64,000 bases of DNA from NCBI RefSeq assembly GCF_003046175.1, contig NZ_PZZM01000001.1, positions 1,621,001 to 1,685,000 on the forward strand, written 5' to 3'. The first letter of the stretch is position 1; each line of letters starts with the position of its first letter. The stretch comes from Bosea sp. 124 (GTDB lineage Bacteria > Pseudomonadota > Alphaproteobacteria > Rhizobiales > Beijerinckiaceae). Position numbers and translations under genes: made by a program. Shown piece by piece: positions 36,421 through 54,168 of the stretch. Below the pieces are notes generated by a model that was given only the letters and a program-made list of their open reading frames with translations, was not told the origin of the DNA and searched no databases.

Positions 36421-37695
36421 GTGTCTGATACATCGATTTATATCAATGGCCGCAGATATTATCTGCCACTCAACCCTAAAATTGTCATCTGCTATGATGG
36501 AATGGATCCGTCATATCTCGCAGATGCTGTGATAAGGGGCATTTCACCGCGCCTGTCCGTCATGGCGGAACACGGCTTTTATGCCAGCGCGCATTCCGCC
36601 ATGCCGAGCTTCACCAATCCGAACAACGTCTCGATCGTCTGCGGCGCGCCGCCCAGCGTCCACGGCGTCTCCGGGAATTACTGGTATGACCGCGATACGG
36701 GCCAGGAGGTCATGATGACCGATGCCGGCCCGCTGCGCGCGCCGACGATCCTCGCCGGGCTGGCCGGGGCCGGCGTCAAGGTCGCGGCCGTCACGGCCAA
36801 GGACAAGCTGCGCAAGGCGCTGGCCGTCGGGCTCGCCGGCGAAGGCCTGACGGGCATCGCCTTCTCGGCCGAGAAGGCGGCCGGCGCCACGCAGGCGGAA
36901 CATGGCATCTCCGGCGACGAGGCCCAGGCCGGCCACCCCGTTCCCGACCAGTATTCTCCGGAGCTTTCGCTGTTCGTGCTCGATGCGGGGCTTCGGCTGC
37001 TCCGAAGCGGCCGGGCCGAGGTGCTCTACCTGTCGCTCTCCGATTTCGTCCAGCATGCCCATGCTCCGGGCGCACCCGAATCCGACGCCTTCATCCGGGC
37101 CGTGGATGCACGCGTCGGCGCGCTGCTCGACGCCGGCGCGACGGTCGGCATCGTCGCCGACCATGGCATGACCGATCTTTCGCTCGCCGACGGCAGGCCG
37201 AACATCCTCTATCTCGGGGACCGGCTGGATGCGCGCTTCGGCGCCGGCGCGACACGGGTGATCTGCCCGATCACCGACCCTTTCGTGCGCCATCACGGCG
37301 CGCTCGGCGGCTTCGTGCGTGTCCACATCCTGGGCGATCTCGACCGCGACGCGGTCCGCGCTTTCCTGGGCCGCCTGCCCGGCGTCGAGCTCGCCCTCCT
37401 GCGCGAGGAGATGTGCCGCCGGTTCGACCAGCCGATGGAGCGGGAGGGCGACATCGCCGTGATCGCCGGCAAGGGCGTCGCGCTCGGCACACATGACGGC
37501 GCGCATGCCCTCGGCGATCTCGCCGGCGCGCGGCTGCGCTCGCATGGCAGCCTCGCCGAACGGGACGTGCCCTTCCTCGTCTCGGAGCCGCTTGACGCCG
37601 CCTACCAGCGCAAGGCCGCGACGCAACAGCTCCACAACTACGACATCTTCGATTTCGTGCTGAACGGCACGCGCCGGGAGGGCATCGCGCCATGA
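36421..37695 (+). CDS. phnA: phosphonoacetate hydrolase
   Basis: A 424-residue alkaline-phosphatase-superfamily enzyme that cleaves the C-P bond of phosphonoacetate to acetate and phosphate using two zinc ions. The expected ligands are in order: Asp26 (C-Y-D-G-M-D), nucleophile Thr65 (S-F-T-N-P-N-N), Asp208 and His212 (S-D-F-V-Q-H), Asp247/His248 (V-A-D-H-G-M) and His358 (G-T-H-D-G-A-H). The spacing matches the rhizobial enzyme. It starts with GTG. Codon use in the first 30 codons is AT-richer than usual for the window. Confidence 0.92.
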   Translation: MSDTSIYINGRRYYLPLNPKIVICYDGMDPSYLADAVIRGISPRLSVMAEHGFYASAHSAMPSFTNPNNVSIVCGAPPSVHGVSGNYWYDRDTGQEVMMTDAGPLRAPTILAGLAGAGVKVAAVTAKDKLRKALAVGLAGEGLTGIAFSAEKAAGATQAEHGISGDEAQAGHPVPDQYSPELSLFVLDAGLRLLRSGRAEVLYLSLSDFVQHAHAPGAPESDAFIRAVDARVGALLDAGATVGIVADHGMTDLSLADGRPNILYLGDRLDARFGAGATRVICPITDPFVRHHGALGGFVRVHILGDLDRDAVRAFLGRLPGVELALLREEMCRRFDQPMEREGDIAVIAGKGVALGTHDGAHALGDLAGARLRSHGSLAERDVPFLVSEPLDAAYQRKAATQQLHNYDIFDFVLNGTRREGIAP

Positions 37696-39001: not shown

Positions 39002-40552
39002 ATGACCCCTTCTTCCCCTGTACGCGGCCTTGACCGCCGCCATGTCCTCGCCGGAGCCGCGAGCCTTGCCGGCGCGCTGGCCGTCCTGCCCGTCGAGGCC
39101 TTCGGCCAGGCCGCCCGCAAGGGCGTCCTGAAATACGCCACGCTCGGCCTCGACACCTCGGACCCGCATCGCCACACCGGCAGCATCGCCTTGCAGCAAT
39201 GCTATGTCGAAACGCTGACCTCGATCGCCGCCGACGGCTCCGTCGAACCCTTCCTCGCCGAGAGCTTCGAGATGTCGCCGGACGGGCTGACCTATCGCTT
39301 TAGGCTCAGGCCAAACGTCAGGTTCCACAATGGCGAGGTGATGAGCGCGGCCGACGTCGCCGCTAATTTCGAGCGCGTGAAGACCAAGGTGAAGGGCGGC
39401 TGGCTCGTCTCGGCGATGAAGCGCGTCGTCAAGCTCGAGACGCCCGACGCAACCACGCTCGCCGTCACCCTGCAGGAGCCCTATTCGCCCTTCCTCAACC
39501 TGCTCTCGGAACTCTGGATCCTGTCGCCGAAATCGGAGGGCTGGGAGGAGACGATCAAGACGCCGCTCGGCACCGGGCCGTTCACCTTCGGCACCTGGCA
39601 GCCCAAGGTGAAGCTCCTCGCGCCGGCCTTCGCGGGCTACTGGAAGAGCGGCGCGCCGCATCTGGAAGCGGTCGAGTTCGATCTGCGCGACGGCATCGAC
39701 AAGAGCCTCGCGCTGCGTGCGGGCGACGTCCATATCATCAGCGCGGAACGGGAAGCCGCCGAAGGCCTCGAGAAGGCCGGTGTCGCCACCATCTCGGGCC
39801 TGAAGGACTCGACCTGGTATTTCGTCGCTTTCAACAACCGGAAGCCGCGCAAGCCGTTCGACGATTTGCGCGTGCGCCGAGCCCTGGCACTGGCCGTGGA
39901 CAAGGCCGCCTTCATGAACTTCGTCGGCGGCGCAAAAGGCATCGTCACCAACCAGATCGTGGCGCCCGGCAATCTCTATTTCGACCAGGCGACACATGAC
40001 GCCGACGCCTTCCGCAAGCCGGATCTCGACCAGGCCCGGAAACTGCTCGCTGAAGCGGGCGTGAAGCCGGCCGAGCACGTGATCGAGTTCGTCTCCTGGC
40101 AGGAGCCCTATGCGCAGGTCGTCGTGCAGATGGTGCGCAAGCTCGGCTTCAAGGTGAACCACGTCGCGCTCGACGATATCGGCGCCCAGAAGCGCCTCGG
40201 CCAATACGACTGGGACATGAACGCGATGGCGTCGGGCCCGCGCTCCGACATCTTCCTGCGCTATGTCCGGCTGATGAGCGACGGCCCCAATCCCGTCCTC
40301 TGGGGCGGCATCCAGGACCCCGATCTCGACAAGCTGATCGACGAGGCCGTCAAGGAGCCCGACGCGGCCGACCGCAAGGCGACCTATCTCAAGGCCTCGA
40401 AGCGCGTCATCGAGAAGGGCTATTTCCACGTGCTCGGACACGCACCGAGCCTGATCGCCATCCGCAAGGGCGTGAAGGGCTACGACCCCGGCTTCACCTG
40501 GGCCTGCCACTGGGCGAGCGGCGGCGTCGCCCACACCACGATCGACGCCTGA
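39002..40552 (+). CDS. peptide-type ABC transporter substrate-binding protein
   Basis: A 516-residue family-5 binding protein. The leader L-D-R-R-H-V-L-A-G-A-A has a twin arginine followed by a hydrophobic core, so Tat export is likely. Family landmarks are F-L-A-E-S-F-E-M-S-P-D-G and G-T-G-P-F-T-F. It starts 30 bases after the phosphodiesterase gene and probably feeds the phosphonate hydrolase pair with substrate. Confidence 0.9.
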   Translation: MTPSSPVRGLDRRHVLAGAASLAGALAVLPVEAFGQAARKGVLKYATLGLDTSDPHRHTGSIALQQCYVETLTSIAADGSVEPFLAESFEMSPDGLTYRFRLRPNVRFHNGEVMSAADVAANFERVKTKVKGGWLVSAMKRVVKLETPDATTLAVTLQEPYSPFLNLLSELWILSPKSEGWEETIKTPLGTGPFTFGTWQPKVKLLAPAFAGYWKSGAPHLEAVEFDLRDGIDKSLALRAGDVHIISAEREAAEGLEKAGVATISGLKDSTWYFVAFNNRKPRKPFDDLRVRRALALAVDKAAFMNFVGGAKGIVTNQIVAPGNLYFDQATHDADAFRKPDLDQARKLLAEAGVKPAEHVIEFVSWQEPYAQVVVQMVRKLGFKVNHVALDDIGAQKRLGQYDWDMNAMASGPRSDIFLRYVRLMSDGPNPVLWGGIQDPDLDKLIDEAVKEPDAADRKATYLKASKRVIEKGYFHVLGHAPSLIAIRKGVKGYDPGFTWACHWASGGVAHTTIDA

Positions 40553-40575
40553 CCGGACGAAGGCGGGGTGGCGCC

Positions 40576-41511
40576 ATGGCGGTGCAGGCTTCAGCAGGGG
40601 AATCGGGCCGTGGCCGGGCGCCCTCCCGACGCCGCCATCGGCCGGTCGGCCTCGTGCTCGCCTGCACCGTCGTGCTGCTGGTCGCCGCCGCCAGCCTGGC
40701 CGCGCCCTGGCTGACCGGGAACTCGCCGCTCGACCAGGACCTGCTCCAGATCAACAAGGGGCCGAGCGCGGATTTCCCGCTCGGCACCGACCATCTCGGC
40801 CGGGATGTCTTCGCGCGGCTGCTCTACGGCGCCCGTTCGACGCTCGGCATCTCGGTGACCGGCACGGCGATCGCCTTCGCGATCGGCGCCGGGCTCGGCC
40901 TGCTGGCGCTGAGCTTCGGGCGCTGGCCGGCAGCCATTCTGTTCTCGGCGATCGACCTCGTGCGCGCGCTTCCCGGCACGCTGCTCGCCCTGCTGCTGAT
41001 CGTCGGCCTCGGCAGCGGCGCCGGCCCGCTGATCCTGGCGCTCGGCATCTCGTTTGCGCCGCTCGTCGCCTATGTGACGCGCGCGACCTATCTGCGCGAG
41101 CAGGCGCGCGACTATGTCCAGGCGGCGTCGAGCTTCTGCGGCGGCAGGCTGCACATCCTGCGGCGCCACATCCTGCCCAATATCGCCGGCGCTCTCGTGA
41201 CCCAGGCGGCGATCATCCTGCCGCGCTGCATCGTCACGGAATCGGTGCTGAGCTTTCTCGGCGTCGGCTCCTCGCCGGACGCGCCGACCTGGGGCCGCAT
41301 GATCGCGGATTCGAGCCGCTTCGTCGAACGCGCGCCGCACGCGATCCTGGTGCCGCTGCTGGCGCTCGTCCTGCTGACGCTCAGCCTGTCGGCCATCGGC
41401 AACCATCTGCGGCGCCATCTCGACCCTGTTCGCGGCGAGGCCGACGGCCCTGCCGCGGAGGACGAGCCGGAGCCCGTCGCGCCGTCCCGCGCACCGCTCG
41501 CGATCACCTAG
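40576..41511 (+). CDS. peptide ABC transporter permease (DppC type)
   Basis: A 311-residue permease with an N-terminal membrane helix, the L-G-T-D-H-L-G-R-D-V-F motif characteristic of DppC/OppC, and docking loop Y-V-Q-A-A-S-S-F-C-G-G. The C-terminal 35 residues are acidic and Pro-rich. The order DppC before DppB is the reverse of the commoner arrangement. Confidence 0.9.
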   Translation: MAVQASAGESGRGRAPSRRRHRPVGLVLACTVVLLVAAASLAAPWLTGNSPLDQDLLQINKGPSADFPLGTDHLGRDVFARLLYGARSTLGISVTGTAIAFAIGAGLGLLALSFGRWPAAILFSAIDLVRALPGTLLALLLIVGLGSGAGPLILALGISFAPLVAYVTRATYLREQARDYVQAASSFCGGRLHILRRHILPNIAGALVTQAAIILPRCIVTESVLSFLGVGSSPDAPTWGRMIADSSRFVERAPHAILVPLLALVLLTLSLSAIGNHLRRHLDPVRGEADGPAAEDEPEPVAPSRAPLAIT

Positions 41512-41523
41512 GAGGAAGCCGTC

Positions 41524-42432
41524 ATGGCACGCGCCATCGCCGTTCTGGCCAGCCTGTTGCGGGGCCTCGCGCAGGCCGCCTTCATCGTGATGCTGACCTT
41601 CTTTCTCTGTCGCGTCATGCCGGGCGACGTCGTCGACGTGCTCGGTCTCGAAGGCGGCCTTACGGCGGAGCAACAGGCCGAGATGCGCCACGGCCTCGGG
41701 CTTGACCGGCCCTTGCCGTTGCAGTTCGCCAACTGGGTCGGCCAGGCGCTGAGCGGCGATTTCGGCCGTTCGATCCGCTTCGACCGCCCCGTCGGGGAGA
41801 TGCTCGGAACGGCCTTGCCGGTCACCGCGCGGCTTACCGCGCTGAGCTTCTGCTTCGGCGTGGCACTGGCCTTGCTGCTCGCGGTCGCCGCCACGGCGCG
41901 GCCCTCGCGCTGGCTCGATGCCGTCATCGATGCCGTCAACACCTGGTCGATCGCCGTTCCGACCTTCTGTGCGGGGGTCGCGGCGATCCTGGTCTTCTCG
42001 ATCTGGCTGGGCTGGCTGCCGGTCATCGGCGGGCTTCTCGTGCCCGTGCTCGTGATCGGCCTCGACAACGCCGGGCAGATCGTCAAATCGCTGCGCGAGG
42101 AGCTGCGCGAAGCGGTGATGCTGCCGCATGTCCGCACGGCTCGCGCAAAAGGCCTGTCGCCCTGGCGCATCGCCTTCGCCCATGTGCTGCCGGCCGCGAT
42201 GCCAGTCATGCTCGCCTTGTCGGGACTCGTGCTGGGAGGGCTGGTCGCAGGCTCGCTGACGATGGAGGTGCTGTTCGCGCTGCCCGGCCTCGGCAGCCTG
42301 ACGCTCAACGCCATCCATGGCCGCGACTATCCGATCATCCTCGCCGCCGTCACCCTGATCGCCGTTGCGCTCGTCGCCATCAACACGGTCGTCGACATGC
42401 TACACCGCCTGATCGATCCGAGGCTTGCCTGA
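41524..42432 (+). CDS. peptide ABC transporter permease (DppB type)
   Basis: A 302-residue permease with six predicted helices. It has the D-L/V-L-G-L-E-G-G-L-T and L-G-L-D-R-P-L-P-L-Q-F pattern of DppB proteins and docking loop A-R-A-K-G-L-S-P-W-R. AGGAGG lies 7 bases ahead of the ATG. Its stop shares one base with the next start. Confidence 0.9.
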   Translation: MARAIAVLASLLRGLAQAAFIVMLTFFLCRVMPGDVVDVLGLEGGLTAEQQAEMRHGLGLDRPLPLQFANWVGQALSGDFGRSIRFDRPVGEMLGTALPVTARLTALSFCFGVALALLLAVAATARPSRWLDAVIDAVNTWSIAVPTFCAGVAAILVFSIWLGWLPVIGGLLVPVLVIGLDNAGQIVKSLREELREAVMLPHVRTARAKGLSPWRIAFAHVLPAAMPVMLALSGLVLGGLVAGSLTMEVLFALPGLGSLTLNAIHGRDYPIILAAVTLIAVALVAINTVVDMLHRLIDPRLA

Positions 42433-44081
42433 TGCGCCCGATCCTCGACGTCGCCGATCTCGACATCACCATCGCCGGGCGCTGCGTGGTGCGCGATCTC
42501 TCCTTCGCGATCGCGCCCGGCGAAACCATGGCGCTGATCGGGGAATCGGGCTCCGGCAAATCGATGACCGCGGCCGCGATCATGGGGCTGCTGCCACCCG
42601 GCGCGCGGATCGGCACGCAGGCGCGCCTGCGCCTCGACGGCGAACTGCTGAAGCCCGAGGACGAGGCGGCGATGCGCCGCCTGCGTGGCCGCGCCATGAG
42701 CATGGTCTTCCAGGACCCGATGAGCTGCCTCAACCCCTTCATGCCGGTCTCCGGACAGATCGACGAGGCGCTGCAAAGACTCGGTACGGGCGCCGGCCGG
42801 GAGCGCCGCGCGCGCCTGCTCGAACTGCTAGCCATGGTCGAGCTGCCCGATCCCGCCGCCATCGCGCGGCGCTACCCGCATGAACTGTCCGGCGGCCAGC
42901 AGCAGCGCGTCATGCTCGCCATGGCGCTGGCGGCCGAGCCGCAACTGCTGATCGCCGACGAGCCGACGAGCGCGCTCGATGCGACGGTCCAGGCCGAGAT
43001 CCTGGCGCTTCTGAAAAACCTCCAGCGCAAGCTCGGCAACGCGCTGCTGTTCATCACGCATGACCTGGCGGCTGCGGCCGAGCTCGCCCACCGCATCGTC
43101 GTGATGCAGGCCGGACGGGCGGTCGAACGCGGCCCGGTCCCGGTCATCCTCGGCGCGCCACGCGAGGATTATACGCGCAAGCTCGTCTCGACGCGGCGGA
43201 TGCTCGCCGCGCCGCCACAAACGCAGCCCGCGCCCCGCGTCGGCGAGCCCGCCCTGCGGATCGAGGGGCTCGTCCATGACTATCCCGCCAGGAGCCTCTT
43301 CGGCCGTGCGTTCCGGTCGCTCGACGGGGTCTCCCTGACGATCGCGCCAGGCGAGACGCTCGGCATCCTCGGCGAATCCGGCTCGGGTAAATCGACGCTG
43401 GCGCGGATCGCCATCGGTCTTGCCCGCCCGAGCGCCGGCGAGGTGACGCTCTTCGGGACGCCGATCGCGCGGCTGGCGCGGCTCGACCGCGCCCTGCGAC
43501 GCCGCTGCCAGATCATCTTCCAGAACCCCTATGGCGCACTCAATCCCCGGCTCACGATCGAGTCCGCCATGCGCGAGCCGCTGGAGCTGCTCGGCCTGTC
43601 TGGCCCCGGCGACCGAGACCGGATCGCAGCGGCACTGGGCGATGTGCGGCTCGGGCCGGAGCATCTCGCGCGCTACCCGCACCAGCTATCCGGCGGCCAG
43701 CGTCAGCGCGTCTGCATCGCCCGAGCCTTGCTGTCGGAACCGGAGCTGCTGATCTGCGACGAGATCGTGTCGGCGCTCGACGCCACGGTGCAGATGCAGG
43801 TCATCGCCATGCTGAAAGCGCTCCAGGCCAGGCGCGGATTTGCGATGATGTTCGTCGGCCACGATATCGAGATCGTGCGCTGGATGTCGGACCGCATCGC
43901 CGTGATGCATCGCGGCCAGATCGTCGAGCAGGGACCGGCGGGATTGCTCGTCGAGGCGCCGCAGGAGCCCTATACGCAAAGGCTGATCGCCGCGATGCCA
44001 CGGGCGCATACGATGACAGGCGAAGCTGACGAAGGTGGCGGCACGCCGCATCGCGATCTCGCCGAGCCGGCCCTCGGATAG
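42432..44081 (+). CDS. fused peptide ABC transporter ATPase (DppD-DppF)
   Basis: A 549-residue tandem ATPase. The first domain has Walker A G-E-S-G-S-G-K-S (37-44), signature L-S-G-G-Q-Q-Q-R and Walker [12 protein letters not shown]. The second has Walker A near 312-319, signature L-S-G-G-Q-R-Q-R and Walker B L-I-C-D-E-I-V-S-A-L-D, where the usual Pro is Ile. It completes the importer of the phosphonate module. Confidence 0.93.
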   Translation: MRPILDVADLDITIAGRCVVRDLSFAIAPGETMALIGESGSGKSMTAAAIMGLLPPGARIGTQARLRLDGELLKPEDEAAMRRLRGRAMSMVFQDPMSCLNPFMPVSGQIDEALQRLGTGAGRERRARLLELLAMVELPDPAAIARRYPHELSGGQQQRVMLAMALAAEPQLLIADEPTSALDATVQAEILALLKNLQRKLGNALLFITHDLAAAAELAHRIVVMQAGRAVERGPVPVILGAPREDYTRKLVSTRRMLAAPPQTQPAPRVGEPALRIEGLVHDYPARSLFGRAFRSLDGVSLTIAPGETLGILGESGSGKSTLARIAIGLARPSAGEVTLFGTPIARLARLDRALRRRCQIIFQNPYGALNPRLTIESAMREPLELLGLSGPGDRDRIAAALGDVRLGPEHLARYPHQLSGGQRQRVCIARALLSEPELLICDEIVSALDATVQMQVIAMLKALQARRGFAMMFVGHDIEIVRWMSDRIAVMHRGQIVEQGPAGLLVEAPQEPYTQRLIAAMPRAHTMTGEADEGGGTPHRDLAEPALG

Positions 44082-44209: not shown

Positions 44210-45040
44210 TCAGCGCGGCTGGCTGTTGATCATGATCGCGGGCAGGGCCGAGTCGGACAGCTCCCACTTCTCGAAGATCTTGCCGTAGGTGCCATCCTTG
44301 ACCAGTTCCTGCAGCGCGTCGGCGACCGCGTCGCGGAAAGCGCTGTCGGTCTTGCGGAAGGCCGCGCCGTAATAGACCACGGTCATGGGCTTGCCGATGA
44401 CCTTGTAGATGCCGCCTTCCTGCTTGCTGGTGAAGGGGATCGTCTCGCCGCCCTGCACGGCCGCGTCGACGCGGCCCTGCTTGAGCTGCAGACGCGCATC
44501 GGGCGAGCTTTCCGTGCCGACGACCTCGATCGGCCCCTTGCCGGCCTTGACGCAATTCTCGTCGCTCCAGTCCTTGACCTGGCCGGGATAGGTGGTCGAA
44601 CGGACGGTGGCGATCTTCTTGCCGCAGAGCTCGACCGGATCTTTCAGGGCGCTGCTGGTCAGCGTGTAGAACATCGCGCCGGCGCGCATGTAGTTGACGA
44701 AGTCCATGGTCTCGCGGCGCGCCGGTGTGTCGGTCATGCCCGAGAGGATGAAGTCCGTGCGGCCGGTGGTCAGGGCCGGAGTGAGCTGGGCGAAGAGACC
44801 GTCCGTGCGCTCGACCTTGAGGCCGAGTTTCGCCGCCAGCGCGTCGACCAGATCGATGTCGAGCCCCTTGAAGGTGTTGGTTTCGGGGTCCTTGTACTCC
44901 ATCGGCGGATAGGTCGCGTTGATCGAGAGCTTCAGAACGCCCGCATCCTTGATCGCCTTCGGAATCTCGCCCGCACCGGCAGCGGCGGGCAGCAAGGCGA
45001 GGCCGAGAAAGGCGGCGCGGCAAACGAACTGTTTCAGCAT
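44210..45040 (-). CDS. amino-acid ABC transporter substrate-binding protein
   Basis: A 276-residue solute-binding family-3 protein with signal peptide (about 1-22, A-G-A/G-E). Landmarks are Y-P-P-M-E-Y-K-D, G-L-D-I-D-L-V-D-A-L and D-F-I-L-S-G-M-T-D-T. ATG 45040 is chosen because GGAGAG lies 6-7 bases upstream; the frame is open further. No permease is adjacent; the nearest unpaired permease and ATPase are at 50.3-52.0 kb, so it is probably their binding protein. Confidence 0.88.
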   Translation of the reverse strand: MLKQFVCRAAFLGLALLPAAAGAGEIPKAIKDAGVLKLSINATYPPMEYKDPETNTFKGLDIDLVDALAAKLGLKVERTDGLFAQLTPALTTGRTDFILSGMTDTPARRETMDFVNYMRAGAMFYTLTSSALKDPVELCGKKIATVRSTTYPGQVKDWSDENCVKAGKGPIEVVGTESSPDARLQLKQGRVDAAVQGGETIPFTSKQEGGIYKVIGKPMTVVYYGAAFRKTDSAFRDAVADALQELVKDGTYGKIFEKWELSDSALPAIMINSQPR

Positions 45041-45137
45041 GGAACTCTCCAGCGTTGGATTATCGGGACATGGTCTGCATCGAGGCGTAGGCCCGCTCGC
45101 GATCCGGCGGCGACGGTTGCAAGACTCCAGCCAGGGC

Positions 45138-46043
45138 CTAGGCCGCGACCGCATCGGCGCAGCGCTGGTCGAAAAGCCGCCTGGCCGTACGCGGTGTCAC
45201 GAACTGGCCGCCCTGTTCGGCGATATAGGTGAGGATGCCGGTCAGGCGGTCTTCGAACTCGGGCTGCCCCATGGTGTAGGTGTGGCAGACCATCGAGACG
45301 ATCTGCGGCTCGGCGGCGGTGCTGGCGCGCAGCGCGACCGCATCCCAGACGCGCCGCATCGCCGGCAGGTTCGAGAACTCGTTGATGATGTAGTTCTCGC
45401 CGACGACGCGCGGACGCGCGGTGCCGGGAGCAACCCCATCCCAGGCCCAGGGAATCTCGAACAGCGCACCGGCTTCGCCCGGCGCCGCCAGACGGGCCGG
45501 CTCCTGCGCCGACATGTAATAGGCGCTGAGCGGCGCGCCCTGCCAGGCGGCGGCCTTGTCCGGCCAGACGATGCCGGGCGCGCACGACAGCTCGATGCCG
45601 ATGCCGGCCTCCTTCACCACCGCGCCGATGGCCGAGGTGAAGCCATGATAGCCACCGCGATAGGCGGCAAAGGGAAGGCCGAGCCTGCGCATCGCCGCCG
45701 CCTTCTCGAGGATCAGCGGCCGCATGTGGTCGATATCGAAATAACTGCAGGAGCCGGGCTCTTTGCCGGGCGGTGGCCCGTAGAGATCCTCTTCCGCATG
45801 CAACACCAGATCGGCTCCGTCGCCGTCCAGCTCGCGCCAGAAATCGGTGAAAGGCGGCTCGAAGAAACGATCGCGGCAGACCGGCCCGGTCAGCACCGTC
45901 CAGGCGGCTGCGCCACCGGCATGCTCGGCCAGGATCGCGCGCATCCGGCCGTATTTCGCCAGCAGCGAGGCGTCATCCTGGTAGACCGAGACGGGATCGG
46001 GATCGCTGTCGACATTAATGACGAGATAAACGCGTTCAGCCAT
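45138..46043 (-). CDS. polysaccharide-deacetylase-fold (NodB-like) protein, degenerate motifs
   Basis: A 301-residue protein that resembles the NodB/polysaccharide deacetylase superfamily: V-I-N-V-D-S-D-P-D (motif 1), L-V-L-H-A-E-E-D-L-Y-G (motif 2 region) and A-Y-R-G-G-Y-H-G-F (motif 3). The second histidine of the metal site is not obvious, so it may be divergent in metal binding. It has no signal peptide and is therefore cytoplasmic, which suggests small-molecule amide hydrolysis as in PuuE allantoinase rather than polysaccharide work. It lies between the binding-protein and XRE-regulator genes, on the same strand. Confidence 0.65.
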   Translation of the reverse strand: MAERVYLVINVDSDPDPVSVYQDDASLLAKYGRMRAILAEHAGGAAAWTVLTGPVCRDRFFEPPFTDFWRELDGDGADLVLHAEEDLYGPPPGKEPGSCSYFDIDHMRPLILEKAAAMRRLGLPFAAYRGGYHGFTSAIGAVVKEAGIGIELSCAPGIVWPDKAAAWQGAPLSAYYMSAQEPARLAAPGEAGALFEIPWAWDGVAPGTARPRVVGENYIINEFSNLPAMRRVWDAVALRASTAAEPQIVSMVCHTYTMGQPEFEDRLTGILTYIAEQGGQFVTPRTARRLFDQRCADAVAA

Positions 46044-46201
46044 CGCTACGGTCCAACCCTGTCCTCAGCGTGTGTACGACGCAGCGGTTGCGCGGCGGAG
46101 GGCGAAGTCGCCCGCCCGGCTCGCTCCCGGTACGCAGCGCGACATCGTCGCCCCGCGCTGTCTCGGAGGGAGCATGGCGCTGACGTGACAACTAAGCAAG
46201 T

Positions 46202-46211
46202 AACTTGACAA
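46202..46211. promoter_or_regulatory. half-site of the XRE-region operator
   Basis: AACTTGACAA here is identical to ten bases of the operator palindrome at 46889-46921, and another TGACAA lies 20 bases upstream. It sits ahead of the minus-strand NodB-like gene and could let the XRE regulator control that gene too. Confidence 0.4.
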
Positions 46212-46242
46212 GGCATTACATGGCTTGAATTTGTGCAACCGA

Positions 46243-46848
46243 CTAAAAGGTCGGCGGGGTGTTGACCCACAGGATCCGGGCCAGCTCATCGCCTGGGTTG
46301 GCATAGCCATGCGGCTCCTCAGACGGGAACGAGAAGGAGTCGCCCGTGAAGAGGCGGCAGGTCTGATCGCCCACCGTCAGATCGAGCATGCCTTCCAGCA
46401 CATAGCCCATCTCCTCGCCGACATGGGAAATCAGCCCGTGGCTGCCGCCACCGGCGACGACCTGGTGGATATTGACCTGAAGCAGCGAGTTGCGGGTCTG
46501 CGGGATGAGCCGCTCCAGCACGACGCCGTCGGCATTCTGGCGCAACCTCGTATTGATCGTCGGTCTTTCGCCGGCCCGCATGACGAAAAGAGGCCCGTTG
46601 CCCTCAGTCTCGTTGCTGAACATCGCGGCGACATTGATGCCGAGGAACGCCACCAGTCGATGCAGCACGGCGAGCGACGGCTGAACCTTGTCGTTCTCCA
46701 GCTTCGAGATGAAGCTTTCCGACACGCCGATACCGGCGGCGACATCCTTCAGGCTCATGCCCTTCATCAGCCGGGCGTGGCGCAGCCTGCCGCCGATCTT
46801 GATCTCAGCACCGGCCTCGGCCGTCGCTACCTTATCGTCGTTCGCCAT
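46243..46848 (-). CDS. XRE-family regulator with cupin domain (PuuR-like)
   Basis: A 201-residue two-domain regulator: N-terminal helix-turn-helix (L-R-H-A-R-L-M-K-G-M-S-L-K-D-V-A, V-S-E-S-F-I-S-K-L-E) and C-terminal cupin (G-Y-V-L-E-G-M-L-D-L, F-P-S-E-E-P-H-G-Y). PuuR-like proteins sense small amines or amides through the cupin. Start 46848 is used for GGGA about 8 bases upstream; ATGs at 46869 and 46932 are possible. It is divergent from the second NodB-like gene and lies next to a strong palindrome. Confidence 0.85.
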   Translation of the reverse strand: MANDDKVATAEAGAEIKIGGRLRHARLMKGMSLKDVAAGIGVSESFISKLENDKVQPSLAVLHRLVAFLGINVAAMFSNETEGNGPLFVMRAGERPTINTRLRQNADGVVLERLIPQTRNSLLQVNIHQVVAGGGSHGLISHVGEEMGYVLEGMLDLTVGDQTCRLFTGDSFSFPSEEPHGYANPGDELARILWVNTPPTF

Positions 46849-46888
46849 CGCAATCCCGGCTCCAAGCATCGCATCACTTGCCGCGACT

Positions 46889-46921
46889 TTCCTATTTGTC
46901 AATGAACTTGACAAATAGGAA
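46889..46921. promoter_or_regulatory. operator palindrome of the XRE regulator
   Basis: TTCCTATTTGTCAA and TTGACAAATAGGAA form a perfect 14-base inverted repeat around a 5-base spacer, in an AT-rich island between the divergent XRE gene and the plus-strand operon. Its size and position make it the best regulator-binding site in the window. Confidence 0.75.
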
Positions 46922-47069
46922 GTGCGACGCAACAGTCCCGAGCATCGGTTGGGGGTGGTCGGGTGGTAAGCAAGGGCCGTTCCAGCGCCGGGGATGACCC
47001 GGCGAGGGCTGTGGCTTCCACGACCCGCCCGGCGCGACCGTCCCTGCCGGCCGAAAGGTGCGTTCCACG

Positions 47070-47969
47070 ATGATCGAGAATCCGATCCCCTGGCCGGACG
47101 GCAAGCGTTGCGCCGTCTCCTTCAGCTTCGATGTGGACGCGGAATCGCTGCTCCATCTCAATTTCCGCGAGACAGCGCCGACCCGGGTCGCGATGTCCTC
47201 GATGCTGCGCTACGACGTGAATGTCGCGGTGCCGCGCCTGATCGAGATCTTCCGGCGCTACGACATGCGCCAGACCTTCTTCGTTCCCGGCTGGTGCGCC
47301 GAGACCTACCCCGCAATGGTGGAGAAGATCATCGCGGCCGGGCACGAGATCGGCCATCACGGCTATCTCCACAAGCGCCCTAACCAGCAAAGCCGCGACG
47401 AGGAGGCCCAGAGCATGGGCCTCGGCATCGAGGCGCTGGTGAAGCGAACAGGCAAGCGGCCGGTCGGCTTCCGCGCGCCGGCTTTCGCCTTCTCGCAGAA
47501 CACGCTCGAACTGCTTCAGGCCGAAGGCTTCGCCTATGACGCCTCGCTGATGGGCGGCGACGTGCCTTACCTCATCGGCAACGAAAAGGGCGACCTGGTC
47601 GAGCTGCCGTCCGACTACGTGCTCGACGACTGGATGCAATATGTCTGTCTGGGCGACTTCAATTACATGCTGCCTATCGCCTCGCCGCAGCGGGCGATGG
47701 AGGTCTTCCGCGCCGAATTCGATGCGGCATGGCGGCATGGCGCGCTGTGGGTCACCGTCTGGCATCCCTTCGTCTCGGCCAAACTGTCGCGCGCCGACGC
47801 CATGGTCGAGCTGATCGATTACATGCAGGAGAAGGGCGGCGTCTGGTTCGCACCGCTCGACGAGATCGCCGCCCATGTTCGCAAGGTCGTGGCGAGCGGC
47901 GCCTGGACACCGCGCCGCGACACGCTGCCCTACTGGCCGGAGCCACGCCCGGCCGACGCCCCGGTATGA
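47070..47969 (+). CDS. polysaccharide-deacetylase-family hydrolase (PuuE-like)
   Basis: A 299-residue NodB-fold hydrolase with intact metal motifs: S-F-D-V-D (Asp21/Asp23), H-E-I-G-H-H-G-Y-L-H (His97 and His101) and F-R-A-P-A-F (motif 3). There is no signal peptide, so it acts in the cytoplasm. Cytoplasmic members include PuuE allantoinase and cyclic imide hydrolases, and a ureohydrolase-like gene lies two genes downstream. ATG 47070 follows AAAGG by about 12 bases; an in-frame GTG lies at 47058. Its stop overlaps the next start (ATGA). Confidence 0.85.
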   Translation: MIENPIPWPDGKRCAVSFSFDVDAESLLHLNFRETAPTRVAMSSMLRYDVNVAVPRLIEIFRRYDMRQTFFVPGWCAETYPAMVEKIIAAGHEIGHHGYLHKRPNQQSRDEEAQSMGLGIEALVKRTGKRPVGFRAPAFAFSQNTLELLQAEGFAYDASLMGGDVPYLIGNEKGDLVELPSDYVLDDWMQYVCLGDFNYMLPIASPQRAMEVFRAEFDAAWRHGALWVTVWHPFVSAKLSRADAMVELIDYMQEKGGVWFAPLDEIAAHVRKVVASGAWTPRRDTLPYWPEPRPADAPV

Positions 47970-48937
47970 GCACGATGCCGCGCCGGCTCAGCGTCAGCCA
48001 CTACATGCCGGAAGACCACGGCAGCCATGCGGACTTCATCGCGCCCTGGGCGAAGGCCGTCGAAACGGCTTCGCAGGGCCGGCTGTCGTTGACCGTCCAT
48101 ACTGGCGCCAGCGCCTTCGGCAAGCTGGAAAGCCAGTACGCCCAGGTCGTCGCGGGCGCTGTCGATGTCGCGCATTCACCGGCAGGGCTGCCCGAGGGCC
48201 GGTTTCCGCTGACGACGCTGATGAACCTGCCCTTCATGGCCGCCTCGTCGGCGCAAGGCACGCAGATGCTCAGTGCTTTGCTGGAGCCGCATCTGGCGCC
48301 TGAATACGAAGGCCTCAAGGTGCTGGCACTGCATGCCGATTCCGGCGGCGTGCTGCATACGCGCGACGCGCCTGTCACCCGGCTGGAAGACGTGGAGGGC
48401 CTGCGCCTGCGCTGCCCGGCGGGACCGATGGAAGCGGCTTTGCGCCTGCTCGGGGCCGAGCCCGTGCCACTGACGCCGCCCTATATCCGCGCCGCCGCGG
48501 AGGAGGGCCGCATCGACGGCGCCGTAATGGCCTGGGACGTGCTGGCCTATACCGGCACCGCTCCGATCTTCCGCCACCATACCGACACCAAGCTCTATGT
48601 CTCGCCGCTCTATTTCGTCATGAACGGTGAGAGCTGGGACGGCCTCGATCCACAGGCCCAGGCCGCGATCGAGCGCTGTTCCGGCGCAGCGCTCGCCGGC
48701 CGCTTCCCGCAATGGTGGGACGCCTGGGAGGCGCCGGGCCGGGCGCTTGGCCTCGCCGAGGGGCAGTCCATGGGCGCGCTCACGACGGCTGAACTCGAAC
48801 GCTGGCGCAAGGCCGCCGCCCCTGCCGCCGAGGCGCATGTCGAATCCCTCGTCGCCGCCGGCCATGCCGGTGCGCGGTCGACCTATGAGGCGGCGCTCGC
48901 CCTGCGCGACCGCCATTCCACGCAACAGGAGTCCTGA
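47966..48937 (+). CDS. DctP-like (TRAP solute-binding) protein without signal peptide
   Basis: A 323-residue protein with the DctP fold: H-A-D-F-I-A-P-W-A-K-A-V-E, G-K-L-E-S-Q-Y-A-Q-V-V, L-R-L-R-C-P-A-G-P and the late W-D-G-L-D-P-Q-A-Q-A-A-I-E. The N-terminus M-S-T-M-P-R-R-L-S-V has no export signal, and no TRAP membrane subunits are nearby. It may be a cytoplasmic binding or sensing protein, or its signal was lost. The start is fixed by an ATGA overlap with the deacetylase gene. Confidence 0.8.
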   Translation: MSTMPRRLSVSHYMPEDHGSHADFIAPWAKAVETASQGRLSLTVHTGASAFGKLESQYAQVVAGAVDVAHSPAGLPEGRFPLTTLMNLPFMAASSAQGTQMLSALLEPHLAPEYEGLKVLALHADSGGVLHTRDAPVTRLEDVEGLRLRCPAGPMEAALRLLGAEPVPLTPPYIRAAAEEGRIDGAVMAWDVLAYTGTAPIFRHHTDTKLYVSPLYFVMNGESWDGLDPQAQAAIERCSGAALAGRFPQWWDAWEAPGRALGLAEGQSMGALTTAELERWRKAAAPAAEAHVESLVAAGHAGARSTYEAALALRDRHSTQQES

Positions 48938-48939
48938 CG

Positions 48940-50007
48940 ATGCCCCATTATCCCGGCTGGGATGCGACCTTCCGCGGCAAGGTCTGGCGCACCACGCATT
49001 TCCCGCGCATCAAGGAAGACATGCCGACCTTTCTCGGCGTGCCGCATGCCGTGACGAAGAAGGACCTCGAAGGCGCCGACGTCGTCATCATCGGCGCGCC
49101 CTTCGTCGCCGGCTTCGGCCGGCAATACAGCGGCGTCGACAAGGACGAGTGGATCGTCGCGACCAAGCATGTGCGCCAGCAGTCGATCCGCTATCGCTCC
49201 GGCTATATCCAGGATTTCGATCTCGACGTTTTTGAGCACCTGAAGGTCGTCGACTATGGCGACGCCAACATCCCGCCCGAGACCAGCTATGAGGGCACGG
49301 TCGAGAAGATCCTGGAGGCGCAGGAAGCCACGATCGCCAAGGTGCAGGATGCGCTCGATATCGGCGCCATTCCGATCGTCATCGGCCAGAACTCGCCCTG
49401 CGGCTCCTATGCGGTCGGCAAGCCGGTCGCGGACAGGGCCAAGGGTCCGGTCGGGATGGTCAGCCTCGACACACACTGGGACGCCTGGCCGTATGACTGG
49501 GCGACGATGAGCCCGCATATCGCCGGCTCGACCAACTGGAAGGACAAGCTCTACCGCGACTGCCCTAACATGAGCATCCCGCATCTCGTCGAGATCGGCG
49601 AGCGCGGCATGCTCGAGGACCCGGCAACGATCCGGCGCTATGTCAGCCAGGGCGCCAATTTCATGCCGATGTGGAAGATCCGCACGGAACTCGGCATCGA
49701 AGGCTGTGTCAGAAACCTCGACCAGGCCTTCGCCGGCAGCGATGCGGTCTACTGCCATTTCGACATGGATGTGATGGGCGGCGCCGGCCCCTCGGACGGT
49801 GACATGCTCGGCGAACTCGCCGAACCGATCGGCATGACCGATTACGAGGCGATCCGGCTCGGCCATGAATGCGGCAAGCGCGGCGCAGACGCGCTCTCCT
49901 TCATCTGCATTCCGCCCGGATCGGCCGTGACCTACCGGGTCATCGTCTATGTGATGATGTATTTCATGGCGGGGCTGGCGATGCGGAAGATCGGCAAGGG
50001 CGCGTGA
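48940..50007 (+). CDS. ureohydrolase (arginase/agmatinase family) with altered metal site
   Basis: A 355-residue ureohydrolase-fold enzyme. Of the three metal-binding motifs, the second (D-T-H-W-D, Asp177/His179/Asp181) and third (F-D-M-D, Asp275/Asp277) are intact. The first, normally G-G-D-H-S, reads I-G-Q-N-S with Asn151 in place of the metal-binding His. Expected chemistry is cleavage of a guanidino or amidino group, but the missing ligand makes the reaction uncertain. It starts 2 bases after the DctP-like gene; CAGGAG lies just upstream. Confidence 0.85.
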   Translation: MPHYPGWDATFRGKVWRTTHFPRIKEDMPTFLGVPHAVTKKDLEGADVVIIGAPFVAGFGRQYSGVDKDEWIVATKHVRQQSIRYRSGYIQDFDLDVFEHLKVVDYGDANIPPETSYEGTVEKILEAQEATIAKVQDALDIGAIPIVIGQNSPCGSYAVGKPVADRAKGPVGMVSLDTHWDAWPYDWATMSPHIAGSTNWKDKLYRDCPNMSIPHLVEIGERGMLEDPATIRRYVSQGANFMPMWKIRTELGIEGCVRNLDQAFAGSDAVYCHFDMDVMGGAGPSDGDMLGELAEPIGMTDYEAIRLGHECGKRGADALSFICIPPGSAVTYRVIVYVMMYFMAGLAMRKIGKGA

Positions 50008-50065
50008 ACGGGCGGCGGCCCGGCTGGCAGGATTATTGCTGCCCGGAACCTTCCGGAGGTGCACC

Positions 50066-50278
50066 ATGCAACCCAGTCTTTCGGCACCGTCGCCGCTGTC
50101 CGTCACATCGTTCCTCCTCGCAGGGCTCCCGGCTTTCGTCGGGGACCTGCTGACCACCGCTCATGGCGCCGTCGCCCGGTTACGATTCGTCGATGCAGGC
50201 GGGGACGGCGGCGAAGGGCCGTCCTCGGCAGCCTTCGAGCGACGCCAGGCGATGCTTTCCGCCATGCGCTGCTGGTGA
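50066..50278 (+). CDS. putative 70-residue small protein
   Basis: A 70-residue frame starting M-Q-P-S-L-S-A-P-S-P and ending M-L-S-A-M-R-C-W. Its chief support is a perfect ribosome site, GGAGGT, five bases before the ATG. A weakly hydrophobic stretch lies at about 12-30; the rest is Gly/Ala-rich and charged. It sits in the 334-base gap between the ureohydrolase and permease genes. I recognise no family. Confidence 0.5.
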   Translation: MQPSLSAPSPLSVTSFLLAGLPAFVGDLLTTAHGAVARLRFVDAGGDGGEGPSSAAFERRQAMLSAMRCW

Positions 50279-50341
50279 GAATGCGCGGAGCGGCATCGGC
50301 AAGGAAGGACGCAGTGGCCCGAGCGCCATGCGCACAGGAAC

Positions 50342-51178
50342 ATGATGAACAGCGATCCTGAAAACCTCGTCATCGTCCAGCGGCGCCATTACGGCCGGCT
50401 GGTCGGCGCCGCCATCGTGCTGGTCGGGCTGGCCGCCATCGTCCATGCCTTCGTCGTCGGCCAGATCGAATGGAGCTATGTCGGCCGCTTCCTGACCGTC
50501 CGGGCGATCATGGAGGGTCTCGCCAACACGATCGTCATGTCGATCCTGGCGATGCTGCTGGGACTCGTGCTCGGCGTCGTCTTCGCGATCATGCGGCTGT
50601 CGGCGAACCCTGTGCTGTCGACCACGGCGCTCGGCTACATCTGGTTCTTCCGCGCGATCCCGGTGCTGCTACAGCTCCTGCTCTGGTACAATCTCGCGCT
50701 GGTCTTCCCGACGATCGGCATCCCCGGCATCGCGAGCTGGAAGACCGTCGACGTGATGACCCCCTTCGTCGCGGCGCTGCTGGGCCTGGGCATCCAGCAG
50801 GGCGCCTTCACGGCGGAGGTCGTCCGGGCCGGCCTGCTCTCGGTCGATCAGGGCCAGTACGAGGCGGCCCAGACGCTGGGCATGACACGCCTGCAACTGC
50901 TGCGCCGGATCATCATGCCGCAGGCGATGCGCGTGATCGTGCCGCCAGTCGGCAACGAGTTCATCGGCATGGTGAAGCTCACCTCTCTCGCCAGCGTGGT
51001 GCAATTCGCCGAGGTGCTGCACAGCGCCCAGAGCATCTACTACGCCAATTCGCGGGTCATCGAACTGCTGCTCGTCGCGGCCTTCTGGTATCTGATCGTC
51101 GTCACGATCCTCAGCCTGCTGCAGGGACGGGTGGAAGCCTATTATGAGCGCGGCGTCGCCCGCTCGCCCGGCCGTTGA
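50342..51178 (+). CDS. amino-acid ABC transporter permease
   Basis: A 278-residue permease of the polar amino-acid family: an N-terminal cytoplasmic tail, about five helices and docking loop [11 protein letters not shown]. Two ATGs (50342, 50345) are possible. It is a single permease and would act as a homodimer. Its binding protein is probably the one encoded at 44210-45040. Confidence 0.9.
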
Positions 51179-51189
51179 GGAGACGCGCG

Positions 51190-52008
51190 ATGGAAACGAC
51201 TCTCGCCCCCGTCAAAGCCCTCGACGCCGACCACCTCGCGCCCGGCGCGCCGCTCGTCCTTGCCCGCAAGGTCCAGAAGCAGTTCGGCGACCTCAAGGTG
51301 CTCAAAGGCATCGATCTCGCGGTGAACCGGGGCGAGGTGCTCTGCATCATCGGCCCGTCGGGCTCCGGCAAGAGCACCTTCCTGCGCTGCATCAACCAGC
51401 TCGAACGCATCGACGGCGGCGCTCTCTTCGTCTCGGGCGAGCGCGTCGGCTTTCACCAGGCCGGCAACAAACTCTACGAACTCGACGACAAGGCCATCGC
51501 CCGCCAGCGCCGCTCGATCGGCATGGTGTTCCAGCGCTTCAACCTGTTCCCTCATCTCACCGCGACCCAGAATATCATCGAGGGCCCAGTCCAGGTTCTC
51601 AGGCAGCCGGTGGCGCAGGCGCGCGAGCGAGCCCATGCGCTGCTCGAACGCGTCGGCCTCGCAGACAAGCGCGACGCCTACCCGTCGCAGCTTTCGGGCG
51701 GCCAGCAGCAGCGCGTCGCCATCGCACGCTCTCTCGCGATGCAACCCGAACTCCTTCTGTTCGACGAGCCGACCTCGGCGCTGGATCCCGAACTCGTGGC
51801 GGAGGTTCTGCTCGTGATGCGCGATCTCGCCCTGACCGGGATGACGATGATCGTCGTGACGCATGAACTCGGCTTCGCCCGCGACGTCGCGCATCGCGTG
51901 GCCTTCATGGATCAGGGCCAGATCGTGGAGATCGGCCCGCCGCAGTCCCTCCTCACCGATCCGAAGGAAGCGCGAACCCGCTCGTTCATCAATGCCGTCC
52001 GGCATTGA
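51190..52008 (+). CDS. amino-acid ABC transporter ATP-binding protein
   Basis: A 272-residue ATPase: Walker [10 protein letters not shown]-loop V-F-Q-R-F-N-L-F-P, signature L-S-G-G-Q-Q-Q-R, Walker [12 protein letters not shown], switch histidine [14 protein letters not shown] lies just upstream of ATG 51190. It completes the importer with the preceding permease. Confidence 0.93.
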
Positions 52009-52066
52009 CGCCGGACCCCGGCAGCACCGCAGTGTCTTTTCCCAGCGATAAAAGCCGACGCAGGAG

Positions 52067-52948
52067 CTAGTTCGGCCGATCGGGCCAGCGCAGCCGGCTG
52101 GCGCGCTGCAGATGGCGGCGCATCTGGGCGGCCGCGACCTCCAGATCGCCGGCCTCGATCGAATCGAGGATCTGCAGATGCTCGCGGCAGTTCACCTCGA
52201 CACGCTCGAAGCCGAACACCCAATCATAATTGGAGAGCCGCCGAAGCTGGTTCTGCCGACGGATCGCCGCGTGGATGAAGCGGTTGCCGGATGCCGCCGC
52301 CAATCCCTCATGGAAGGCCGCGTTCATCTCGAAGAAGCTGATCGCGGAGGTCTCGCGCCAGGGCTGCGCCAGCGTCGCCCGATGGCGCTCGCGCATCTCC
52401 GCGAGCCACCCCCGGTCGAGTCCGAAGCCCGGCTCGAGGAAGGCCATCGGCTCGATCAGCAGCCGAAAGCGATAGCGTTCCTCATGCACGCGCGGATCAC
52501 GCGGCTCCTGCAGGAAGCGCCAGCCATAGCCCGGCCTGCGCTCGACCATGTCGAGATCGGCGAGGCGCGCCAGCAGCCGCTTCGCCTCGGGCCGGCCGAG
52601 CCCGTAGCGCCGCATGATTTCCTGCTCGGAGAACGCATCCTCCAGCTCGCCGGCCTCGTGCTCATGGGCGAGCCGGATCAGGGCGAGTTCCACCTCATCC
52701 GGCGGACTTGCGCCCGCATCCGGCAGGCCGGGAGCGCTGATCAGCTCGAGCCCGCGATGCGGGTTGCGGCGCACCAGCCCGCGCGCCTGGAGCCAGGCGA
52801 AGGCGGCGCGCACCGGCGTCCTGGAGACGTCGAGCCGGCGCGCGATGACGCTTTCGTTGAGGCGGGCACCGGCGATCAGCCCGTCCTCGCGCGCCAGATC
52901 GAGGATGCGCTCGGCGAGGTCCTGCTGGAGACGGGAAGGCTGAGACAT
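52067..52948 (-). CDS. GntR-type regulator with two winged-helix domains
   Basis: A 293-residue regulator. The first winged helix (about 11-70) is GntR-like: L-N-E-S-V-I-A-R-R-L-D-V-S-R-T-P-V-R. A second (about 88-146) reads F-S-E-Q-E-I-M-R-R-Y-G-L-G-R-P-E-A and ends R-P-G-Y-G-W-R-F-L. An FCD-like helical ligand domain follows. The doubled DNA-binding region is unusual. It is convergent with the transporter operon on its left and divergent from the C45 gene on its right, so it may control the latter. Confidence 0.82.
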   Translation of the reverse strand: MSQPSRLQQDLAERILDLAREDGLIAGARLNESVIARRLDVSRTPVRAAFAWLQARGLVRRNPHRGLELISAPGLPDAGASPPDEVELALIRLAHEHEAGELEDAFSEQEIMRRYGLGRPEAKRLLARLADLDMVERRPGYGWRFLQEPRDPRVHEERYRFRLLIEPMAFLEPGFGLDRGWLAEMRERHRATLAQPWRETSAISFFEMNAAFHEGLAAASGNRFIHAAIRRQNQLRRLSNYDWVFGFERVEVNCREHLQILDSIEAGDLEVAAAQMRRHLQRASRLRWPDRPN

Positions 52949-53025: not shown

Positions 53026-54168
53026 ATGATCCAGCCCTGCCCCTTCGTGGATGTCTCTGGAACGCCCTATGAGCGGGGACGGCAGCATGGTGCGGCGGTG
53101 CCCGCGCGCGTCAAGCGCTCGATCGAACTCTATGGCGGACAGCTCGACGAACTCGGCTACGGCGCTGCGGCCAAGACGGCGCTGATCGGGGAATTCGCTC
53201 GCGAGATCGAGGCTTTCGGCGCTCATTACGTCGAGGAGATGGCCGGCATCGCCGAGGGCGCCGGCGTGTCGCTCGAAGACATCATCATGATCAATGCCCG
53301 CACCGAGGTCATCGCCAAGGCGCGGCTGGTCAAGAACAGGCCGGTCGAGGCGACCGAAGAGCTCGACGATGGCTGCACCGGGGCAATCATCCTGCCCGAG
53401 CGCAGCGCCAACGGCACGCTGATCCACGGCCAGAACTGGGACTGGAAGGCCGAATGCGCCGAGACCGCGATCGTGATGCGGGTGCGGCGCGACGACGGGC
53501 CGGACTTTCTCACCTTCGTAGAGGCCGGCGGGCTCGCCCGCTGCGGCATGAATGCGGCCGGCATCTGCATCACCGCCAACTACCTCGAATCCGAGCGCGA
53601 CTTCACACAACCCGGCGTGCCGCTCGCCCTGATCCGACGCAAGGTTCTGGAGCAGGAGCATCTCGCCTTCGCGATCAAGGCTGTGGCGACGACGCCGAAG
53701 GCCTGCTCCAACAACATGATGCTGTCGACCGTGAAAGGCTTCGGCATCGACTTCGAATGCGCACCGGACGAGGCCTTCCCGCTCTACCCGAGCGAGGGGC
53801 TGATCGTGCACGCCAACCACTGGGTCGGGCAGGTCGCGCTGACCAAGCTGCGCGACACCGGCACGCCACGCGTGCCCGACAGCTTCTACCGCGACTGGCG
53901 GGTGCGGAAGCTGCTGGACGAGGCCGGCGGCAAACTCACGGTCGACGATCTGAAAGCGGCCTTCTTCGACGATTTCCTCACGCCCCATTCGGTCTGCCGC
54001 CCGCCGCGCCCGAACGACACCGGCAACCTGTCGGCGACGGTCGCGATGGTGATCATGCAGCCGGCGGAAGGGATCATGGAGGTCTGCCCGCTGCCGGCGC
54101 TGAACCGGAGCTTCACCCGCTACAGCCTGACGGCGGGACCGCTGACTCTTGCGGAGGCCGCCGAATAG
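53026..54168 (+). CDS. C45 peptidase / acyltransferase-like Ntn-hydrolase
   Basis: A 380-residue Ntn-hydrolase of the acyl-CoA:6-aminopenicillanate acyltransferase group. Cleavage of the precursor at G/C in D-D-G-C-T-G would expose Cys117 as the nucleophile. G-Q-N-W-D-W and a late V-H-A-N-H-W are also typical. Such enzymes deacylate or transfer acyl groups on amino compounds. GGGAG lies about 9 bases before the ATG. Peptide-transporter genes follow, so it may process imported acylated peptides. There is no signal peptide. Confidence 0.85.
   Translation: MIQPCPFVDVSGTPYERGRQHGAAVPARVKRSIELYGGQLDELGYGAAAKTALIGEFAREIEAFGAHYVEEMAGIAEGAGVSLEDIIMINARTEVIAKARLVKNRPVEATEELDDGCTGAIILPERSANGTLIHGQNWDWKAECAETAIVMRVRRDDGPDFLTFVEAGGLARCGMNAAGICITANYLESERDFTQPGVPLALIRRKVLEQEHLAFAIKAVATTPKACSNNMMLSTVKGFGIDFECAPDEAFPLYPSEGLIVHANHWVGQVALTKLRDTGTPRVPDSFYRDWRVRKLLDEAGGKLTVDDLKAAFFDDFLTPHSVCRPPRPNDTGNLSATVAMVIMQPAEGIMEVCPLPALNRSFTRYSLTAGPLTLAEAAE

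Follow-up and report, generated by a model that had tools for sequence, protein, structure and literature searches.

A conserved gene cluster in Bosea encoding NodB-fold, DctP-fold and arginase-fold proteins: a candidate catabolic cassette for cyclic ureide- or amidine-like compounds

We analyzed a 64,000-nucleotide stretch of DNA from Bosea sp. 124 (the window; positions 1621001-1685000 in a 5.47-Mb single-contig genome), in which a divergent gene cluster at window positions 44210-52008 encodes an XRE-cupin regulator, an amino-acid-type ATP-binding cassette (ABC) importer, two NodB-fold proteins, a DctP-fold solute-binding protein and an arginase-fold protein. The cluster is a conserved unit, with relatives ranging from Bosea to Pseudomonas, Azospirillum and Sodalis. 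The reading we prefer, and to which we give about even confidence, is that it is an accessory cassette for the uptake and catabolism of a cyclic ureide or amidine, or of an N-carbamoyl or N-amidino amino-acid-like compound. An earlier note on this DNA had proposed a single uptake and catabolic system under one XRE-cupin regulator. All the genes that it named were found where it had placed them, using Pfam and NCBIfam scans and gene calls, and the idea of one system is borne out by the conserved linkage.

Linkage was examined in loci carrying close relatives of the arginase-fold gene (clade I; loci are designated by L numbers). The sample consisted of all eight genome-contig matches, G055, and five of the eight plasmid records with 60-80% identity, giving 14 loci; the broken locus L039 was left out of the counts, so that 13 intact loci remained. 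Genes in these loci were called with a self-written gene caller, and matches were counted within 8 kb of the arginase-fold gene at a threshold of 80 bits. Some of the solute-binding protein and M20-family queries were taken from L033, L034, L037 and L038, and those rows match by construction. The earlier note had staked its proposal beforehand on the co-occurrence of these families in gene neighbourhoods, and they do co-occur: genes for the regulator, a solute-binding protein, a permease and an ATPase were found near the arginase-fold gene in all 13 intact loci. The genes for the first and second NodB-fold proteins (NodB1 and NodB2) and for the DctP-fold protein behaved as a set, with all three present in 5 loci and none in the other 8. 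In each of the 13 relatives the arginase-fold protein had the highest identity to the window copy of any cassette protein (71-97%), although M20 and some solute-binding protein rows were scored against other references. As a control, 16 loci with arginase-fold identities of 56-65% (clade II) were searched at the same limits; none had the regulator, NodB1, NodB2, DctP, the solute-binding protein or a carbamoylase-type M20. Weak permease or ATPase matches (28-34%) in four of them (L041, L042, L043 and L047) can be ascribed to the large size of these families. One clade-II locus, L055, contained weak NodB2-like pieces scoring under 80 bits, a hydantoin-racemase-like gene (56% identical to that of L033) and an amidohydrolase gene.

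The genes of the unit are arranged in two blocks that diverge between 46848 and 47070. The leftward block, on the minus strand, consists of the regulator (46243-46848), NodB1 (45138-46043) and SBP3 (44210-45040), a solute-binding protein of the polar-amino-acid type (PF00497, 1.8e-31) with 64-91% identical copies in the five relatives that have the long cluster. The SBP3 start was placed at the ATG at 45040, which gives a signal-peptide-like N-terminus as it does in L032 and L033; the open reading frame start at 45154 is too early. The rightward block, on the plus strand, consists of NodB2 (47070-47969), DctP (47966-48937), the arginase-fold gene (48940-50007), and the permease (50342-51178) and ATPase (51190-52008) of the importer. 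NodB2 and DctP overlap by 4 bases, and the arginase-fold gene follows DctP after a gap of 2 bases. The permease (PF00528) is of the HEQRo type and scores over the TIGR01726 cut-off, and profile scans place the ATPase in the GlnQ/EhuA type; the importer is thus of the amino-acid type as judged by NCBIfam. The binding protein had been assigned to the permease and ATPase despite the 6 kb between them, and this pairing is supported. In L034, L035 and L040 the order is XRE, then NodB2-M20-DctP-arginase-fold-NodB1-SBP3-permease-ATPase, and the apparently split importer of the window is therefore a rearrangement of one contiguous set. The eight short clusters carry a permease only 31-34% identical to that of the window and another solute-binding protein (21% in L037), together with an arginase-fold protein at 71-76%. 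In our reading, the short and long clusters share one enzymatic core and differ in their uptake components.

The gene set looks accessory and mobile. Orthologs of NodB1 (81-100%) are present in 3 of 61 Bosea genomes, including that of the window, with two more homologs at 31%, and NodB1 was found in no plasmid record. Arginase-fold orthologs (80-100%) occur in 4 of 298 family genomes, and the flanks of the window cluster differ from those of L032 and L033. In Mesorhizobium loti LU, the intact locus L034 is accompanied by a second, broken and partial copy of the cassette (L039). On three Azospirillum plasmids (L058, L060 and L061), the short cassette is followed by genes for the binding protein and the small and large permeases of a tripartite ATP-independent periplasmic (TRAP) transporter, along with a gene of the mandelate racemase family.

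The region between the divergent blocks contains an operator-like palindrome at 46889-46921, TTCCTATTTGTCAA-TGAAC-TTGACAAATAGGAA, and its existence as previously described was confirmed: the arms are 14 bp and perfect, with a 5-nucleotide loop. When the 64 kb were searched for the 11-base half-site with up to one mismatch, only the two arms of the palindrome were found, against 0.06 matches expected. Across the 5.47-Mb genome the core TTGTCAA-N5-TTGACAA has a single location, and control matches numbered zero. The inner half-sites are retained in L032 and L033. A simple inverted-repeat search found no copy of the palindrome beside the regulators of more distant clusters, so that operator conservation is shown for three Bosea-type loci only. 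The adjacent regulator has a PuuR-like architecture (PF01381 and PF07883), and its match to the NCBIfam PuuR profile (6.1e-26) falls under the cut-off.

The protein encoded at 48940-50007, previously called a ureohydrolase, has the arginase alpha/beta fold, but its canonical metal site is incomplete. In the ureohydrolase superfamily, four Asp and two His are conserved as metal ligands (PMC11271267). Five of these six are present here (D177, H179, D181, D275 and D277), and the first His is replaced within an invariant GQNSP motif; the residue at this position is ambiguous by one, being either N151 or S152. The canonical His was missing in all 120 of the homologs compared, the best 120 of 868 at E <= 0.001. 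The predicted model is nearest to metformin hydrolase MfmA, guanidinase and proclavaminate amidinohydrolase. The suggested release of urea from a guanidine is not supported, since the first metal-ligand His is absent and the protein resembles formimidoylglutamase as well as the guanidine hydrolases. The missing ligand could also mean that the protein is a catalytically dead partner or a regulator and that the cassette serves uptake alone, with the hydrolases as accessories, much as metformin hydrolase has its metal centre in MetCa only and not in MetCb (PMC11271267). We consider this very unlikely. Five of the six ligands are kept, whereas proteins of the MetCb clade lose three to five (PMC11271267), and among the cassette proteins this one is the most similar to its window copy in each of the 13 relatives. 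Moreover, the formiminoglutamase of T. cruzi naturally has Asn where the first His would be (GGGND in the wild type, GGGHD in the N114H variant), and its solved structures are titled as containing Mn2+2.

Both proteins described as NodB-fold hydrolases have that fold, but NodB1 lacks the standard metal motif of the group. Neither has a signal peptide. NodB2 matches PF01522 (1.5e-18; 67.4 bits against a gathering score of 23.1) and has the complete, ordinary set of NodB motifs (D21/D23, H97/H101, R135 and H232). The nearest solved structures are 3rxz (217.8 bits), then HP0310 (3qbu, 115 bits), and then PuuE-type proteins (3cl6, 68.6 bits). Cyclic imidases belong to the NodB-fold group that contains PuuE. 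NodB1 was assigned to the fold by its predicted structure alone. It had no Pfam, NCBIfam or PDB sequence match at E <= 0.001, and a profile search of the PDB gave chance-level matches only, at E of 0.42 or worse. In place of HxxxH it has H-x-E-E-D (H82, E84, E85 and D86), a sequence found in all 39 aligned proteins; two remote homologs have H-x-H-E-E.

The DctP-fold protein (PF03480, 2.1e-32) has no leader. Signal-peptide absence was judged from the position of the N-terminus and a crude hydropathy window. Among 104 homologs, a SHYMP-type motif of the first strand lies within 20 residues of the start in 82 and later in 7, five of which have a clearly hydrophobic leader and two do not. The other 15 are off-pattern; several of these are fragmentary or begin within the motif, and P0294 begins with a hydrophobic stretch. 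Arg149 is invariant in the 91 of the 104 homologs that could be aligned there, and it aligns with the conserved DctP Arg of exported relatives. This Arg restricts TRAP binding proteins to carboxylates (PMC4646407). The histidines of the protein were considered as newly catalytic residues and rejected, as nearly all of them are already present in the exported relatives P0282, P0284 and P0289. They are more likely to be binding-site residues, and export seems to have been lost in this family of binding proteins.

An M20 protein of the hydantoinase/carbamoylase family is encoded within 8 kb of the arginase-fold gene in all 13 clade-I relatives; that of L036 is a 101-amino-acid fragment, and those of L032 and L033 are of a different subtype and lie 5.5-7.2 kb away. 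In 11 of the 13, the L036 fragment included, the M20 gene adjoins the arginase-fold gene or is one gene away. This neighbour adds support to the ring opening that the earlier note had proposed. M20 assignments were made by scans for L033, L034, L035, L037, L038, L040, L057, L059 and the L036 fragment, by record names for L058, L060 and L061, and by 79% identity to L033 for L032. The M20 proteins of 8 of the 13 loci score 238-382 bits with TIGR01879, over its 204-bit cut-off. Directly downstream of the cassette in L033 (13120-18925; also in L032, at 79-91% identity) are genes for a third NodB protein, an ATZ/TRZ-type amidohydrolase, the M20, an Asp/Glu/hydantoin racemase and a D-hydantoinase, the last above the TIGR02033 cut-off in L033. 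A comparable D-hydantoinase cluster was sought at the window locus and is absent there; the window genome has the ortholog (83%) at 4.50 Mb, where the surrounding 19 kb have no match to the other genes of that cluster. The remote NodB1 homologs of two other Bosea genomes, G276 and G246 (31% each), have an M20 gene 4-5 kb away, which is of the NCBIfam carbamoylase type in G276 and 34.6% identical to the L037 M20 in G246. The G276 locus also holds a dihydroorotase/hydantoinase-like gene and genes for an amino-acid solute-binding protein and permeases. At L076 (176-9978), a remote NodB1 homolog lies beside amino-acid ABC, ornithine-cyclodeaminase-family, M20 carbamoylase-family, PLP aminotransferase and dihydroorotase/hydantoinase-like genes.

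The M20 association could instead reflect a cassette for breaking down amino acids that are peptide-like or N-substituted (diketopiperazine-, lactam- or aminopolycarboxylate-like), in which the M20 would act as a deacylase. In its favour is clade-II locus L041 (and, by gene order, L042), where the arginase-fold gene is found with Lyase_1, MmgE/PrpD, M24 and M28 genes, an ArgE/DapE-type M20 and an Opp-type importer. The M20 proteins scanned from 8 of the 13 clade-I loci fit TIGR01879 rather than ArgE/DapE, and the clade-I importer is of the amino-acid and not the Opp type, so we regard such substrates as improbable for the window cassette. The L041/L042 cluster represents, in its own right, another putative catabolic cluster for the same arginase-fold family.

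The pathway that we favour, with a cyclic ureide- or amidine-like substrate or an N-carbamoyl or N-amidino amino-acid-like one, would run as follows. The solute-binding protein, single permease and ATPase would import a small polar compound. The XRE-cupin protein may repress both divergent operons at the palindrome, and the substrate or a product would lift the repression. In the cytoplasm, the NodB-fold enzymes would open a cyclic imide-, ureide- or amidine-type ring to give a carboxylate, and the arginase-fold enzyme would then cut the C-N bond of an amidine, formimidoyl, guanidine or ureide group. A hydantoinase/carbamoylase-type M20 amidase could take off the remaining N-carbamoyl-type group, so that the end products would be an amino-acid-like compound and ammonia, urea or formamide. 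The DctP protein, probably cytoplasmic, might bind the carboxylated intermediate, either as a sequestering or channelling protein or as an enzyme.

Several observations weigh against this reading. The window's own cassette contains no M20, which leaves the ring-opening scheme without its neighbour at this locus; six matches to the L034 M20, at most 40% identical, are located elsewhere in the window genome, and we assume that the activity is supplied from outside the cassette. No NodB match was found within 8 kb in 8 of the 13 relatives (the rest of the L036-L038 genomes lying outside the search), which places ring opening outside the core. The imported compound may differ among loci, given permeases down to 31-34% and different solute-binding proteins in eight of them. 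The arginase-fold relatives of clade II occupy other gene contexts, and Azospirillum alone contributes four of the 13 loci, which are therefore not independent. Alternatively, the core of importer, arginase-fold protein and M20 may act on an amino acid with a linear N-amidino, N-formimidoyl or N-carbamoyl structure, for example a guanidino acid, as in the agmatine and guanidinobutyrate pathways, with NodB and DctP a later extension for a cyclic precursor. The eight loci without a NodB or DctP match have the regulator, importer, arginase-fold and M20 genes (a fragment in L036), annotated examples of this core exist in Azospirillum and Sodalis, and the model of the arginase-fold protein is nearest to the three enzymes named above (MfmA, guanidinase and proclavaminate amidinohydrolase). 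On the other hand, a linear substrate leaves the tight NodB1/NodB2/DctP trio of the window and five relatives unexplained, and the first metal His is gone in the best 120 of the 868 homologs. We think this account unlikely, although it deserves serious weight.

The unit was initially thought to extend to 52948 and so to include a GntR-FCD regulator (52067-52948, minus strand). The portion from 44210 to 52008 is conserved, but a GntR match is absent from the approximately 21-kb loci L032 and L033, and the conserved unit therefore stops at 52008. The window continues with a gene for a C45-family autoproteolytic acyltransferase/hydrolase (53026-54168) and then an SBP5 gene. These too were considered as members of the unit and rejected; L032 and L033 have no C45 match, and 48 of the 61 Bosea genomes match the C45 gene at E <= 1e-100, as against 3 of 61 with a NodB1 ortholog. 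Directly upstream of the cluster, a PhnA phosphonoacetate hydrolase gene (36562-37695; TIGR02335, over its cut-off) is followed by an SBP5/Opp-type ABC importer (39002-44081), and these likely form a separate phosphonate operon.

For proteins that carry no annotation beyond 'arginase family protein' or 'agmatinase' and lack the canonical metal ligand, the analysis offers a specific function that can be tested. NodB1 represents a family with the NodB fold that has no match in Pfam, and the DctP-fold protein is an example of a TRAP binding protein whose place of action seems to be the cytoplasm. Once its substrate is identified, the cassette would represent a further nitrogen-source pathway of bacteria associated with soil and plants, and its enzymes might prove useful as amidase- or hydantoin-type biocatalysts.

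Among the titles and abstracts listed by literature searches, none described this gene combination or the three altered sites; the nearest system was metformin hydrolase, another arginase-fold system. The arginase-fold protein is 20-23% identical to MfmA/MetCa (8snf), guanidinase (9fek) and proclavaminate amidinohydrolase (1gq6), and unlike them it lacks the first ligand His and is linked to M20 and XRE-cupin genes. Its best NCBIfam profile match is HutG (hutG, 3.9e-7), and the T. cruzi formiminoglutamase (4mxr, 4myn) is the best PDB match for residues 19-205; however, its 29.6 bits are well below the 229.15-bit HutG cut-off (TIGR01227), and Pfam and NCBIfam scans assigned no cassette gene to another hut enzyme. 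Comparison with PuuE allantoinase (3cl6) and HP0310 (3qbu) places NodB2 far under the PuuE cut-off (77 against 424.6 bits with TIGR03212, to which NodB1 has no match), and NodB1 has an HxxxD motif. The DctP-fold protein has the Pfam domain, invariant carboxylate Arg and binding-site histidines of TRAP DctP proteins, but it differs in lacking a signal peptide, in being co-encoded with cytosolic enzymes, and in having no DctQ or DctM among the genes called in 44210-52008, in contrast to a DctPQM system with an exported binding protein. Hydantoin and allantoin catabolism generally proceeds by ring opening, followed by the action of an M20 amidase of the hydantoinase/carbamoylase family. The L032 and L033 loci share a D-hydantoinase and an Asp/Glu/hydantoin racemase with the clusters for hydantoin utilization, whereas here the ring opener would be a NodB-fold protein, an arginase-fold enzyme and a cytosolic DctP are added, and the M20 is outside the window cassette. 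That these differences amount to a new type of pathway is a tentative suggestion that we would sooner doubt than assert; in it, three protein classes would have changed together for one ureide or amidine substrate, namely a cytoplasmic binding protein that holds or processes a carboxylated intermediate, a C-N hydrolase of the arginase fold whose metal site was rebuilt, and an HxxxD NodB ring opener. Every part of the cassette is of a known fold, and its predicted logic resembles that of hydantoin and allantoin catabolism.

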